Shown: positions 33,679-38,678 of the stretch, piece after piece
Layout of the letters: the number at the start of each line of letters is the position of its first letter
Numbering within the stretch: position 1 is the stretch's first letter
NCBI GenBank assembly: GCA_021323375.2
Contig: JAJPCT020000006.1
Span: forward strand, 1-38,678
Direction of reading: 5' to 3'
Origin: Candidatus Wolframiiraptor gerlachensis
GTDB lineage: Archaea; Thermoproteota; Nitrososphaeria_A; Caldarchaeales; Wolframiiraptoraceae
DNA length: 38,678 nucleotides
Position numbers and translations under genes: made by a program
Notes under the pieces: generated by a model
What the model saw: the letters and a program-made list of their open reading frames with translations, nothing else
Told to the model about the DNA's origin: nothing
The model's database searches: none

Positions 33679-34096
33679 CCTCCTCCTTCGACGTTCTAAC
33701 TTTTCTCTCGATGAGCCTGAGCCTTAGCGTGATATAGGCTATCGCAGTGGTTATTATTGCTAGGATGTAGTAGCCCGCGCCCAAGGCCATTCCTATCGAG
33801 GATGTAACCCATAGAGATGCCGCCGTCGTTATGCCAACAATCCTCTCCCTAGTCTGAATTATTGTCCCAGCACCGATGAAGCCTATCCCGGCGACAATGT
33901 AGGAGGCAACCCTAGCTGGATCCCCGCCCGGAAACGCCGTTATCGAGAGAATTGTGAACAGGCATGAGCCGAGCGAGACGAGTATATGCGTCCTCAGGCC
34001 GGCTGGCTTATCCACCTGCTCGCGCTCATAGCCCAGAACGCCACCTAAGGCGAATGCCGCTACAAGCCTGATCACTAGCTCCAGCTCGGGCACCAT
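33668..34096 (-). CDS. MgtC/SapB-family membrane protein
   Basis: About 142 residues with four or five helices. The family signature is clear: LGGVLGYEREQVDKPAGLRTHILVSLGSCLFTILS, then GIGFIGAGTIIQTRERIVGITTAASLWVTSSIGMALGAGYY. MgtC-type proteins affect Mg homeostasis or F-ATPase activity in bacteria; the archaeal role is not known. ATG 34096 sits about 30 bases after the TATTAATATAG box on this strand (34123-34133), so the upstream ATG at 34150 is probably not used. It overlaps the dehydrogenase end by 11 bases on the opposite strand. Confidence 0.85.
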   Translation of the reverse strand: MVPELELVIRLVAAFALGGVLGYEREQVDKPAGLRTHILVSLGSCLFTILSITAFPGGDPARVASYIVAGIGFIGAGTIIQTRERIVGITTAASLWVTSSIGMALGAGYYILAIITTAIAYITLRLRLIERKVRTSKEEASS

Positions 34097-34146
34097 AGCC
34101 ACGCGCTTATGGGGTGTGATCGCTATATTAATACTGAGCCGCGGCT

Positions 34147-34755
34147 TCACAGCTCGGATGAAAGCCTGTTCAGCGTCTCCATCACGCTGGATAAGACCTG
34201 CTTCACGCGGGAGATCCTATCCTCATAACCCTTCAGCCTAGACTCATACTCGGAGATCCTCGACTCATATTCGGAGATTCTTGATTGGTATTCTGAGATC
34301 CTTGACTCGTATTCGGAGATCCTTGCCTTGAGAGAGTCTAGCTCAGATTGGAGCTTGGAGATCTTCTCGGCCTCAACGCCCTCGCCGAGGGGCGCATACT
34401 TCTCCTTGAAGAGCTCCGTCGGCAGCTGTATCTTCACCCCCTCTCTCAGGAACCTCTCGTATGTCTCTCGGACGATCTGGCCCGCCTTCGTCTTACCTTG
34501 AAGATGGTTTCTTATCGTGGCCTCGGTTCTCCCGAGCTCCTCAGCTATCTGCGGGATGGACATCTTGGCCTTTTCCCTCGCGAGAGCCGCCGCTGCAACA
34601 GCCAAGCTATCAATCCAAGTCAACCTCTCCCTCGGGTTCTCGAGCTCCTCCAAGACCCTTGGGCTGAAAATGCTGGCGATCAGTAGCGCCGACTCGAGCT
34701 TGTGTATCTGCTCCCTCCCAATCGGCGTTAATGGTATCTCCTCACTCTCGCTCAA
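34147..34755 (-). CDS. HTH regulator with heptad-repeat coiled-coil tail
   Basis: The first 100 residues contain a winged or tetra-helical DNA-binding region with an HTH at about 64-86 ([21 protein letters not shown]). Residues about 135-185 are a coiled coil built from exact heptads, ISEYESR and ISEYQSR, four consecutive copies. The gene overlaps the KaiC-like gene upstream by 14 bases, which ties the two functionally: a KaiC-like ATPase next to a DNA-binding partner is a recurring archaeal pairing. The protein's target is unknown. Confidence 0.65.
34241..34324. repeat. four 21-bp tandem repeats inside the HTH/coiled-coil gene
   Basis: Units at 34241-34261, 34262-34282, 34283-34303 and 34304-34324 start GACTCATACTCGGAGATCCTC and differ by one to six bases. 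Each encodes one heptad of the coiled coil, so copy number could change without breaking the frame, giving a coiled coil of variable length. Confidence 0.75.
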
Positions 34756-35488
34756 TCTCCCTCACCTCCTTCAAAACCTCCGCCGCCTTCACAATTATAC
34801 CTTTATCCGTTATCTCGAAGGGATGCCTCCTCATAGAGTGCGCAGTCCCCCTCATCTTCCAGACTATCAGGCTTCTCTTCAGCTCCCCACGTATCTCGTC
34901 GAGATCGAGCCTCACGATTCCGTCAACTGCATGCTCTACTCCGGGCCCGCCGAAGCCTCGCTCAGTCACGCTGACCTGTGAGACTAGGATTGAGGTGCAG
35001 CCCAGCCCCGATAAGACCCTCTTCAGCTGGAGAACCATGCCCCTCGCCATGACCGGCTTGGTTATGTAGAGCGTTGTGACCGAGTCGACGACGACGCGCT
35101 CAGCCTTAACCTCCCTAATCGCCGTCCTCAAAACATCGATTAGCATCTGGAAGTCATCCGGCGCCCTGACAACATATCTCTCCCTCTTGGCAGCCTCGCC
35201 TATCCCGGCCGTGAATGCGTCAACTATCGCAAATCTCCCCTCTTCCTCATACTCCGAGACATCCCAGCCGAACTGCGACATCGCTATCCTCACGGCCACC
35301 GGGTGCTCCTCCAGCGCGACGAGTATGCCGGGCTCTCCGCGCCTAAGCCCATTATACAGATACTGGTATCCGAAGATAGACTTCCCAGTCCCAGGGCCCC
35401 CCGAAAGCAGGACGACATTCCTCTTCGGTATCCCGCCACTCAATATCTCATCAAACCCAGGTATCCCGGTTATAACCCTCTCAACCAT
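34742..35488 (-). CDS. single-domain KaiC-like RecA ATPase
   Basis: The 248-residue protein begins [30 protein letters not shown] with Walker [12 protein letters not shown] (about 27-37 from the chosen start), Glu pair in LVALEEHP, Walker [14 protein letters not shown], and a C-terminal [22 protein letters not shown], all KaiC-family features. Archaeal single-domain KaiC-like ATPases often have signalling or regulatory roles and pair with small HTH proteins, here the overlapping downstream gene. ATG 35488 lies about 33 bases after the TTTATGC box near 35520, so it is preferred over 35536. Confidence 0.87.
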
Positions 35489-35586
35489 AAGCTCCCAGAA
35501 AATTATATCCCCCTCGCCGCATAAATGCCTTTCCATATCTTTAAGCCATCAGCTAATCCAAATAAGTAATGGGGGATGATTGATCC

Positions 35587-36051
35587 TCAGGGAGGCGGTG
35601 TTATCTCGAACGTCTTTGGATCAGCGTATGAATAATACCATAGGATTGTTTCACCATTGCTTAGGACGTATTTGTCGCATGCTGATCCGCCATGAGCCCA
35701 TCCGAGGTTCGTCCACATCCACCAGGTCCAGTATCTCGATTGCTCGATGGATTGTTCTACACCATTTATCGCCTTCACATATAACCCCATTGTGCCGTAG
35801 GATTCCGCGTCAACCTTCCATCCAGCCTCCAGCATGGCGTCATAGAGCGTCAGCCCCCGAGTCCCATTAAACCAAACCCGGGTACCATTCCCATAGTCTA
35901 TGCCGAGGTTTATGATCGCCTTCGATCTCTCAAGCCTCGAGGTAAGATCCGTGTACTGGTAATAGTAGTAGCCGAGTAGGAGTGATGCGGCGATCGCCCA
36001 GCATAGGATGCATATCGCGGCTAAGGCCCATCTATTTCTCAGAGACGCCAT
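35587..36051 (-). CDS. membrane-anchored DUF4430 protein
   Basis: The 154-residue protein has an N-terminal membrane helix (LAAICILCWAIAASLLLGYYYY) and an extracytoplasmic domain with GLTLYDAMLEAGWKVDAESYGTMGLYVKAING, YWTWWMWTNLGWAHGGSACDKYVLSNGETILWYYSYAD. This is the DUF4430 pattern related to the C-terminal domain of transcobalamin-like proteins. Such proteins are often found beside ECF transporters and probably capture a cofactor. It overlaps the upstream S-component gene by 13 bases, so they act together. Confidence 0.78.
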   Translation of the reverse strand: MASLRNRWALAAICILCWAIAASLLLGYYYYQYTDLTSRLERSKAIINLGIDYGNGTRVWFNGTRGLTLYDAMLEAGWKVDAESYGTMGLYVKAINGVEQSIEQSRYWTWWMWTNLGWAHGGSACDKYVLSNGETILWYYSYADPKTFEITPPP

Positions 36052-36587
36052 GATATCATCCCCCTATAACTCCTCTCCAAGACCGTGATCAGCGGAATGG
36101 AGCAGATTCCGAAGAGGGCTGCATTGCTCATTTCATGGATTATCGCGAAGGGTATGCCGGCGATCAGCGCCGCAATGATCGGGACGTTGAACGTCAGGGC
36201 GAAGGCGATATTCGTGATTAGGTCGTAGATGAGGGTTAGTAGGAAGCCCATGGCGCCAAATAGCATGCTCAGCCCAGCCCTATTGCCGGAGGTGCTCACT
36301 ATTGATAAAGACTTACCGAGGAGGCCTCCCGCGACGCCGTACATCGACTCGGATAACATGGTCGCGATCCAGATCTGGGGCACGAATCCATAGGGATTCA
36401 GCACGCCGTAAACGGCCCAGACGAGGATGCCAACGGAGGCGCCGATCAGGGGGCCGAAGACGAAGCCGCTCACGAAAACAAGAAGATCCATGATCTTGAA
36501 ATTCGCAACCCCTATCAGGGCATAATTTGAGCCCAAGCATGCGGCCACCGTAACTGCTATTAGGCTGACCTTTTTGCTCTCGAACAT
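36039..36587 (-). CDS. ECF transporter substrate-binding S component
   Basis: A 182-residue membrane protein with about six helices. The start MFESKKVSLIAVTVAACLGSNYAL and the AVYGVLNPYG and GLLGKSLS segments follow the pattern of vitamin-type S components (CbrT/PanT/QueT group by resemblance). No EcfA or EcfT genes are nearby, so it presumably uses an ECF module encoded elsewhere. The partner DUF4430 protein points to a corrinoid, but that is inference. ATG 36587 directly follows the 21-bp palindrome and TATA-like box, which fixes the start. Confidence 0.75.
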   Translation of the reverse strand: MFESKKVSLIAVTVAACLGSNYALIGVANFKIMDLLVFVSGFVFGPLIGASVGILVWAVYGVLNPYGFVPQIWIATMLSESMYGVAGGLLGKSLSIVSTSGNRAGLSMLFGAMGFLLTLIYDLITNIAFALTFNVPIIAALIAGIPFAIIHEMSNAALFGICSIPLITVLERSYRGMISWRL

Positions 36588-36588
36588 G

Positions 36589-36609
36589 TTGGATGGATAA
36601 TCCATCCAA
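36589..36609 (-). promoter_or_regulatory. 21-bp perfect palindrome operator
   Basis: TTGGATGGAT, one central base, then ATCCATCCAA: ten exact base pairs on each side. It lies between a TATA-like GATTTATGAA (36610-36619, minus strand) and the ATG at 36587, covering the expected transcription start. A dimeric repressor bound here would block transcription of the S component and DUF4430 gene, the usual arrangement for vitamin-uptake control. Confidence 0.85.
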
Positions 36610-36740
36610 TTCATAAATCTTATCCTTACCCGCCTCCCAAAATATTACCAAAGGTCTAAGCGATGCCCCAGCATTTATCAGCTCGGGGATGAAGAGACCC
36701 TCGATTGCTGATCGTGATGTGATGAGCTGGGGGAATGCTT

Positions 36741-37088
36741 TCAGACCCGGTCAGGCCTGAACATTTTGAGGAGGGCTCTTCGAGCGTTCTCATCGTTCCG
36801 GCGCATGAGGACTATTACCTCATCTGGGCTTGATGCATTGATCGCGCCCTCGCGGATCATCGTCGAGAACAATACTCTCAGGAGGGCCTCCGCCCCCTCC
36901 CCAAATACCGCTCTGAAGGCGTTGTAAAGCCTGTTAGGATTCTCGTAAAACACTTGGTAGGGGCTCTCGCCGAGAACCTTCCTCAACTGATACTCAAGTG
37001 CCACAAGCCCTGTATTACCCAATAATCTTAGGAGCCATTGCTTCAGAAGCCTCTCAACATAATCCCTAGATGAGTTCTCACCGACCAC
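36741..37088 (-). CDS. small helical archaeal protein of unknown function
   Basis: The 115-residue product is all-helical by pattern (SRDYVERLLKQWLLRLLGNTG, ALEYQLRKVLGESPYQVFYENPNRLYNAFRAVFGEGAEALLRVLFSTM). It resembles a small uncharacterised archaeal group with an EYQLRKVLGE-like helix, but I cannot give it a name. No signal peptide or cysteine. It stands alone between the ECF promoter region and the disrupted membrane protein. The 174 bases before the next gene contain no feature I can support beyond a TATA-like GTTAAAAATC near 37233. Confidence 0.5.
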   Translation of the reverse strand: MVGENSSRDYVERLLKQWLLRLLGNTGLVALEYQLRKVLGESPYQVFYENPNRLYNAFRAVFGEGAEALLRVLFSTMIREGAINASSPDEVIVLMRRNDENARRALLKMFRPDRV

Positions 37089-37262
37089 CTCATCAGCCCT
37101 AAAACATGGTCATTCCCATAAGATTTAGTGTTTTCACATGTTGGCCACACGCCTTGTAAGCGGCCTAAATTACAATAATAAGGAGCATATTCGGCTCCAA
37201 GTGCCCGCCGATAGACGTTATTGCCGGATGAATGTTAAAAATCTACGGGGAGCATTGTTTTC

Positions 37263-37937
37263 TTGAATCTTGTTCTTGAGGGTGGCATGGGGCTGATGGG
37301 GCTTAAGCTCCTCTGCTTAATTCTCTTAAGCACAATCATTTTAGGAGCAGTTCTTGGAGCATCTTTAGAACTTGAGACAATCAGCATGCTCCCATCCCTG
37401 AAAGCAGCCTCCTCGAGAGCGATCATTATTGCGAAGACGATCTTTCAGGCTATCCGCCACCTAGGGCTCGACGACGCTCAGACATTGACCCTATCACCAG
37501 GCATAGGGATATTCGCCAACAACGCCCTCACAACCATACTCATACTCTTCTCGCCGATACCAATCCTACTGGCCAAGCCATTCTCGGATAAGCATCTATC
37601 CAAGCTCCATTATGAGCATGGAATCCGGCTCTTCAAGCCAATAGGATGCTATCGCTAATCCTGCCATCATATGCGCTAGGCCTACAATTCTACATGATTG
37701 GAGGAGCCCTCGCGCTTCATGGCTTAGACGTGGCCGCATTAACAATTTCTAGCGATCGAGACAGCTACAGTATCATTCTCATGTATCCTTGCTCTCCTGC
37801 CAGGCCTCTCAAGAAACCCTTTCCAGTATCTCGGGAAATATGCCAGAGCGCTTAAGCTCGCCATGCCAGCGATATTGGCATGTCTTCTCGCTGCCGCGAT
37901 CCTCGAGTCCCATCAACTACTCCTATTGGCCAGCTGA
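37263..37937 (+). pseudogene. multi-pass membrane protein with two offsetting frameshifts
   Basis: The first frame (start TTG 37263 or ATG 37287) encodes two hydrophobic helices and the stretch HYEHGIRLFKPIGCYR, then stops at 37658. The reading sense continues in another frame from about 37643 (SLILPSYALGLQFYMIGGALALHGLDVAAL) and returns to the first frame near 37752 (AIETATVSFSCILALLPGLSRNPFQYLGKYARALKL) to TGA 37935-37937. The middle part is about 105 bases, so one lost and one gained base would give the pattern. The complete chain of about 225 residues has five or six membrane helices, and its ANNALTTILILFSPIP part faintly recalls SpoIIM-type proteins. Assembly error is a real alternative to a true pseudogene. 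Confidence 0.6.
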
Positions 37938-37997
37938 CGGGGAAATGCGCGGAATATGGTTAAAGTTAAATATGTCTCGTGATGCCGTGGCGGGAGA

Positions 37998-38498
37998 ATG
38001 GGGCTTTACGGGAAGCTTGAGGAGCTGTGGCGGGAAAAGCCTGAGGAGCTCCGAGCCCTAATGAGGCAGAGGCTAATCAGGTGGCGGAGGGAGCCCGCGG
38101 TAGTCAGGATTAGGAAGCCCCTCAGGCTGGATAGGGCTAGAAAGCTCGGCTACAAGGCGAAGCAGGGATTCATAGTGCTCCGGGTCAGGGTTAGAAGGGG
38201 CGGGTTCCAGAAGCCTAGACCAAGATCAGGCAGAAGGCCGAAAGCCCTCGGAGTCGTAAAACATAAAGTGAATGTCTCAATGAAGGAGGAGGCGATCCAG
38301 CGCGCAAAGAAGAAGTACCCGAACCTCTACCCGCTCGGAGCCTACTGGATCGCCGAGGACGGCTTATACAAGTGGTATGAGGTCATAATGGTTGATCCGC
38401 ATCACCCGGCAATACTAAATGATGAGGAGCTTCGGCTTCCCGATCCCCTCCTGAGAAGGATTAAAAAGAAATTGGAGAAAAAGAAGCAAGAGAAGTAG
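37998..38498 (+). CDS. rpl15e: 50S ribosomal protein L15e
   Basis: The 166-residue basic protein has the L15e pattern from the first residue (MGLYGKLEELWREKPEELRALMRQRLIRWRREP) through RLDRARKLGYKAKQGFIVLRVRVRRGG, RSGRRPKALGV, and NLYPLGAYWIAEDGLYKWYEVIMVDPHHPAI. The C-terminus is a basic lysine-rich helix that differs from the typical GKRGR ending. TATA-like GTTAAATAT at about 37965 lies 33 bases before the ATG, suggesting its own promoter. Confidence 0.95.
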   Translation: MGLYGKLEELWREKPEELRALMRQRLIRWRREPAVVRIRKPLRLDRARKLGYKAKQGFIVLRVRVRRGGFQKPRPRSGRRPKALGVVKHKVNVSMKEEAIQRAKKKYPNLYPLGAYWIAEDGLYKWYEVIMVDPHHPAILNDEELRLPDPLLRRIKKKLEKKKQEK

Positions 38499-38505
38499 GG
38501 AGCTA

Positions 38506-38678
38506 TTACTCAACCTTTATCACGCCGACTGGGCATCCGTCAGCGGCGCTCTTAACATCATTCAACAGGTTATTAGATGCTTCTCCAACAGCTGGATCTC
38601 CGCCAACCCTATACTTCTCGACTATCTGGCTCTTACCATCATCGGGGTTTTGCTCGAAGAACTCGGGGACGAGGGCCC
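38506..38678 (-). CDS. ferredoxin, C-terminal part (cut by the window edge)
   Basis: The last 57 residues of an electron-transfer protein on the minus strand, ending LNDVKSAADGCPVGVIKVE. The CP pair before a final strand is the last cluster cysteine of single 4Fe-4S ferredoxins such as those of Thermococcus. The first three cysteines would lie upstream of 38678. A linker of about 25 residues (NPDDGKSQIVEKYRVGGDPAVG) is longer than in small ferredoxins. Confidence 0.8.
   Translation of the reverse strand, partial: ALVPEFFEQNPDDGKSQIVEKYRVGGDPAVGEASNNLLNDVKSAADGCPVGVIKVE

Follow-up and report, generated by a model that had tools for sequence, protein, structure and literature searches.

A conserved palindrome at the promoter of a CbrT-like ECF S-component gene of Candidatus Wolframiiraptor gerlachensis is a likely operator of a cobalamin regulon in Thermoproteota, with DUF4443 proteins as candidate regulators

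The window analyzed here, a stretch of 38,678 nucleotides from Candidatus Wolframiiraptor gerlachensis, contains on its minus strand a two-gene unit headed by the gene for a CbrT-like ECF S-component of 182 aa (36039..36587), a predicted cobalamin/corrinoid binding subunit that was identified by profile match and through its orthologues. The second gene of the unit, which overlaps the stop of the S-component gene, encodes a DUF4430 protein (35587..36051, minus strand; PF14478, E 1.6e-8). The putative operator, a perfect palindrome of 21 bp, TTGGATGGATTATCCATCCAA (36589..36609, minus strand), was delineated on the basis of its exactness, uniqueness and conservation; it has the form TTGGATGGAT-A-ATCCATCCAA, with arms of ten bases that are 100% complementary and a single base in the center, and can also be decomposed into two TGGAT-N5-ATCCA units that overlap at an offset of 4 bp. 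The palindrome is abutted by a TATA-like box, TTTATGAA (36610..36617, minus strand), which is supported by its sequence and by the T/A-rich box found at positions -11 to -3 ahead of the palindrome in an alignment of 75 oriented sites (in this alignment, the letters of the palindrome itself are biased because the sites were picked by pattern). The S-component gene has its conserved ATG at 36587, separated from the palindrome by one base; given that the ATG of the orthologues directly follows the palindrome, the longer open reading frame start at 36614 is probably not real.

A preliminary description, made from the sequence alone, had claimed an exact inverted repeat of ten base pairs with a single central base, located between the TATA box and the ATG and without an adjacent regulator; the first claim held, and the second held for the window. 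The genome scan that it proposed yielded no second copy in the same genome: within 3 mismatches, the 21-mer occurs once in the window (mean of 0.01 in dinucleotide shuffles) and is a single copy in the whole 1.28-Mb genome, and further copies were found solely in other genomes. A longer perfect palindrome, of 24 bp, CGTTAGCGTCCG/CGGACGCTAACG, is present at positions 1074-1097 of the window, between 1031 and 1270 and outside the called open reading frames of 80 aa or more. Within 3 mismatches, this palindrome is absent from all seven other genomes of the genus. Palindromy alone is therefore insufficient, and it is conservation that makes the site at 36589-36609 real.

Across the phylum, the 19-base core of the site was detected within one mismatch in 78 of the 398 genomes, whereas the reversed control matched in one of the same 398 (G311). 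Although the left arm is readable as codons (MDYPS), these counts and the occurrence of the site before unrelated gene families practically rule out a chance palindrome or a coding constraint. Within the order, the S-component gene is present in 6 of the 44 genomes, own genome counted, and named genomes (Wolframiiraptor, Geocrenenecus, Bathyarchaeota) contribute nine S-component loci, in part the same contigs; the palindrome precedes nearly all of these genes, G021 being an exception. Altogether 68 places were found in the search for S-component loci, of which those in G170 and G292, both with frames of roughly 940 aa, were left out. A site within 4 mismatches lies upstream of 40 of the 71 distinct S-component genes and, among the best-scoring ones, upstream of 39 of 43; four well-scoring S-components (L007, L075, L171, L176) lack it. 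Hence the finding that would have refuted the preliminary description, orthologous S-components without a conserved site, was not obtained. In the null for this comparison, 756 of the 20,000 windows match with up to 4 mismatches, a figure that includes real sites because the windows were drawn from the same loci. At the genome level, the site is present in 30 of the 36 genomes with an S-component match of E up to 1.1e-52 and in 48 of the 362 others (Fisher test, p 2.4e-18; the four counts were compiled by hand from the site scan and the S-component scan).

The S-component family profile has a sole PDB sequence match, 6fnp_A (E 5.7e-11), and 6FNP is the cobalamin transporter ECF-CbrT (PMC5997447). 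The archaeal profile matches this Lactobacillus delbrueckii protein along its length; the window protein differs in being archaeal and in having DUF4430 as the second gene, and its transport function is inferred. No curated family model matches above its cut-off: the match to PF07155 (20.1 bits) is under the cut-off of 26.7, and no NCBIfam family matches the window S-component. We consider it likely that this protein is the subunit of a CbrT-like B12 importer, with cobalamin binding and transport both inferred. Its nearest named relative, from Candidatus Wolframiiraptor allenii (L008), is 90% identical, and the DUF4430 cluster is represented in 29 of the clustered loci. A third S-component type matches PF12822.

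The genes that follow the site identify the vitamin. At 73 of the 82 distinct sites, a gene of a B12 family, as recognized by us, is located from -60 to +330 nt downstream; these targets include S-components, BtuF, BtuC, CobZ, CobD, CobT, CobN, MtaB and DUF4430. By Pfam and NCBIfam names, the transport neighbors are Peripla_BP_2 (BtuF-like) and FecCD (BtuC-like), and the other neighbors are a CobD-like aminotransferase with a zf-like domain, DUF71/Diphthami_syn_2, CbiB, CobS, CbiZ-PgpA, CobY-like, CobT, CobN and MtaB. A relative of apgM-type phosphoglycerate mutase (iPGM), which to our knowledge has no established B12 role, was counted as a B12 family and is never the only B12-type neighbor of a site. 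No recognized B12 gene is directly downstream of nine of the 82 sites (L057, L059, L070, L071, L072, L073, L078, L091, L094), and BtuC and BtuF-type genes are located elsewhere in two of these loci (L071 and L078). Because the sites stand at B12 genes, and in four relatives at the gene for the B12-independent ribonucleotide reductase NrdD, the vitamin is inferred to be cobalamin. The site is thus very likely to be the operator of a B12 importer, and it recurs at B12 genes phylum-wide, with binding and effector still inferred. The preliminary description had predicted that the ECF S-component gene carries a repressor operator responsive to a vitamin, and that more copies would reveal the vitamin; the former is supported, with the same reservation on protein and effector, and the latter held, through copies in other genomes.

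In five loci (L088, L089, L090, L092, L093), the gene about 183 nt downstream of the site encodes MtaB (methanol:corrinoid methyltransferase), and it is possible that methylotrophy is under B12-linked control there.

Bacterial cobalamin riboswitches have the same targets, namely B12 uptake, salvage and B12-independent isozymes that are shut off by B12, whereas the window element is a DNA palindrome at a promoter; archaea, as a rule, lack B12 riboswitches. A cobalamin riboswitch was rejected for the window: an Rfam search of positions 34000-38678 gave only two sub-threshold matches, to unrelated families. More generally, the palindrome might act as a hairpin in the mRNA leader, in riboswitch-like or translational control, rather than as a DNA operator. 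Any palindrome can fold into a hairpin, and a few genes, such as MtaB with its long distance to the site, would carry the palindrome in the leader if transcription started upstream. However, in L050, L051, L053, L096, L097 and L103 one copy is shared by two divergent genes that lie at different distances from it, and no Rfam match exceeds the gathering score in the region searched. Furthermore, given that the TATA-like box abuts the palindrome, the transcript would start at or near the ATG, without the hairpin, by the usual spacing of TATA box and transcription start in archaea. The RNA alternative therefore appears very unlikely, and the DNA operator remains the preferred reading.

In the window's family, the site is present in 14 of the 22 genomes. 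With one locus kept per genome (further copies in G027, G028 and G030, four sites, were left out of the tally), it precedes the S-component gene in six, one of which is the remnant in G028 described below, BtuF in four and class III NrdD in four. The NrdD-linked sites (G031, G035, G039 and G042; loci L248, L249, L253 and L256) are at the gene start, and two of the four fall inside the window's own genus. An operator at the gene for the B12-independent enzyme probably reflects a B12-sparing logic, which is also the logic of bacterial B12 riboswitches. The own genome encodes the AdoCbl-dependent NrdJ and two CbiQ/EcfT proteins above the cut-off, so that an ECF energizing module is present; neither a BtuF-type binding protein nor CobS was found in it, and these absences are provisional because the assembly is 89% complete. 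Where the supply of DNA precursors depends on imported B12, regulation of the importer is to be expected, as is regulation of NrdD in the relatives that have this alternative enzyme. In one locus of this family (L245, G028:C12:211805), a perfect operator is followed by a 76-aa remnant that runs from the S-component into DUF4430-like sequence, apparently a case of gene decay through internal deletion.

The best candidate for the regulator is a protein with a winged helix and DUF4443 (PH0730 type), represented in the own genome by a gene on G000:C22 (about 99818-100432); we regard this assignment as likely, with binding to the site inferred. The protein matches PF14544 (84.9 bits) and PF22167, the N-terminal wHTH domain (42.8 bits), both above the cut-off. 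Its gene is on another contig, unlinked to the window site, and no near copy of the 21-mer was found in its promoter. The family came to attention through clustering of the neighbors of the sites, not every one of which was scanned against Pfam; searching the site neighborhoods for HTH proteins by regular expression gave nothing useful. DUF4443 is the only recurrent regulator-like family that we recognized: cluster 16 (DUF4443 with the N-terminal winged helix) is present in 5 of 60 palindrome-centered regions, a subset of the site places, and additionally in L011. The DUF4443 gene follows BtuC and the ABC ATPase in L050 and L051, the S-component and DUF4430 in L061 and L062, and CobZ-like genes in L117, L120 and L126. 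Of these loci, L117 (G296) and L120 (G339), which belong to different genera, cannot be told apart by their gene lengths and protein starts, possibly as a result of cross-binning of one contig.

Among 35 S-component-centered regions taken without regard to DUF4443, 12 contain a DUF4443 gene, either in divergent orientation to the S-component (L176, L178, L193, L194, L197) or co-oriented and downstream of it (L184-L189, L192). A rough estimate based on 1-3 copies per genome and regions of 5.5 kb gives a chance expectation below one; these 12 regions are not 12 independent events because they come from five families, with six regions from one genus. In a tree of 47 DUF4443 proteins, the number of label changes was set aside as evidence, since L176, L178, L184-L189 and L192-L194 carried the label for proteins away from B12 genes but adjoin S-components. 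The presence or absence of DUF4443 was rejected as a discriminator since the family is near universal, with a match in 357 of the 398 genomes; no match was found in three genomes with the palindrome (G001, G040 and G371, 81, 76 and 87% complete, respectively). In many Bathyarchaeota-like genomes, the DUF4443 gene adjoins a gene for a GPN-type GTPase (identified by our reading of the sequence, without a family search), and no B12 gene was seen there.

Related sites strengthen the connection. More distant S-components have TTGGATAnnnTATCCAA or a near variant as the site (L180, L182-L187, L189, L192, L193). The exact TTGGATAnnnTATCCAA pattern was found in 35 of the 398 genomes vs 7 of 398 (8 sites) for the control, and in 14 of the 30 loci retained it is located at a gene for an S-component, BtuF, CobZ, a CbtA/CbtB-like protein or DUF4443; many of the other copies lie within open reading frames and may be due to chance. 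In four loci (L219, L222, L226, L231), TTGGATAnnnTATCCAA is in the promoter common to DUF4443 and a cbtB-like gene; the short gene opposite DUF4443 is CbtB by Pfam in all three loci tested (L219, L222, L231), and CbtA then follows CbtB in both of the two tested (L219, L231). In L234, TTGGATAnnnTATCCAA is located between the DUF4443 gene and the S-component, and in L197 the site beside the divergent DUF4443 gene is CTGGCTGGATTATCCAGCCAG, with both arms changed symmetrically. An operator on the promoter of the presumed regulator is the pattern of autoregulation. The helix letters of DUF4443 also differ by group: they read, for example, GEGSVKSMVK in L184-L189, where the site has the TTGGATAnnnTATCCAA form, and GEGxxRTLI/V in L113, L115 and L118, where it has the 21-mer form. 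This correspondence is suggestive only. In L228 (G341), TTGGATAAACTATCCAA is located 35 nt upstream of a gene for a CsoR/RcnR-type metal repressor (PF02583), a possible link to cobalt.

Two rival readings accept the operator. Under the first, it is read by another, unlinked protein, and DUF4443 is a neighbor for another reason, in agreement with the near universality of the family, its frequent location away from B12 genes and the lack of linkage in the window genome. Against this stand the blindly chosen S-component regions, the sites in the DUF4443/cbtB common promoter and in the gap between DUF4443 and the S-component, and the failure to recognize any other recurrent regulator-like protein near the sites (with the neighbors incompletely scanned against Pfam); we consider this rival unlikely. 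Under the second, the operator senses a metal, cobalt, rather than a cobamide, as the related sites ahead of the probable cobalt transporter genes cbtBA might indicate. Given, however, that sites also stand ahead of importers of whole corrinoids, salvage genes and the B12-independent NrdD, a cobamide sensor is the simpler explanation, and a cobalt sensor appears improbable.

Thus, the palindrome is likely the operator of a cobalamin-responsive repressor, most likely DUF4443, that controls a CbrT-like B12 importer, although no binding or expression data exist. What is shown is the palindrome with its conservation, its position in promoters and its occurrence at B12 genes, together with the recurrent linkage of DUF4443 to B12 and cobalt genes and to related palindromes; binding by DUF4443 and the cobamide effector are inferred. 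When B12 is plentiful, the cobamide-loaded repressor would sit between the TATA box and the start and would keep the archaeal transcription machinery from being recruited; once B12 is exhausted, the repressor would leave and the importer would be made. That the effect is repression rather than activation is likewise an inference. In a bolder reading, which we consider fairly likely, the DUF4443/PH0730 family is the archaeal B12 repressor (CblR), an old, near phylum-wide switch that would coordinate the import and salvage of B12 with the uptake of cobalt and with the use of either a B12-dependent or a B12-independent ribonucleotide reductase, through a single or double TGGAT-N5-ATCCA site, depending on the lineage.

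An archaeal B12 regulon with an unidentified regulator is already known. The predicted cobalamin regulon of P. furiosus has been named in print, with the regulator given as 'unknown' (PMC10746257, 2023), and Rodionov 2003 is reportedly the CBL-box paper on the archaeal B12 regulon. The present sites resemble this predicted CblR/CBL-box regulon of Pyrococcus and others in being palindromic DNA sites at archaeal B12 genes; the difference is that the present proposal, made for Thermoproteota, adds a candidate family for the regulator, a double-unit form of the site and NrdD as a target (the consensus letters were not compared). As far as our literature search reaches, the assignment of DUF4443 and the double-unit reading appear to be new: in the open-licence PMC literature, we found no papers on CBL-box, CblR or DUF4443, none naming DUF4443 as the archaeal B12 regulator, and no other archaeal B12 regulator. 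A homologous structure is that of PH0730 of Pyrococcus horikoshii (PDB 2p8t), which has the same two-domain build (profile E 9.5e-27) and is listed as a winged-helix family (PMC6316755); the entry itself is titled 'Hypothetical protein PH0730', and neither a ligand nor an operator was found in the literature searched. A single palindrome thus leads to a vitamin, an importer, a phylum-wide regulon and a specific candidate for the regulator, of which a homologous structure has been solved without being explained; if the assignment is true, a domain of unknown function gains a function.

The architecture of the site is best seen in the spacing spectrum before the 71 S-components: N5 occurs 45 times, N1 30, N9 21 and N4 2, and none of the other spacings from 0 to 12 was found. 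The window 21-mer contains exactly two N5 units, 4 bp apart and with letters in common, and such doubled units account for the N1 and N9 counts. At least one TGGAT-N5-ATCCA unit is kept in 81 of the 82 sites; this figure is weak evidence because 16 of the 18 possible single mismatches leave one unit by construction, and the spacing spectrum is the better evidence for the unit. By inference, one dimer would bind at a single site, and double sites would accommodate two dimers or offer a choice of register. DtxR/IdeR-type operators are likewise long palindromes in which two overlapping dimer sites can be discerned; the window site differs in the protein family, the letters and the 4-bp offset. 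Upstream of the distant S-components in L201 and L203 there are perfect palindromes of 28 bp, with a TTGGATAATTATCCAA core and CCATA flanks, which are even-spaced and are the longest operators seen.
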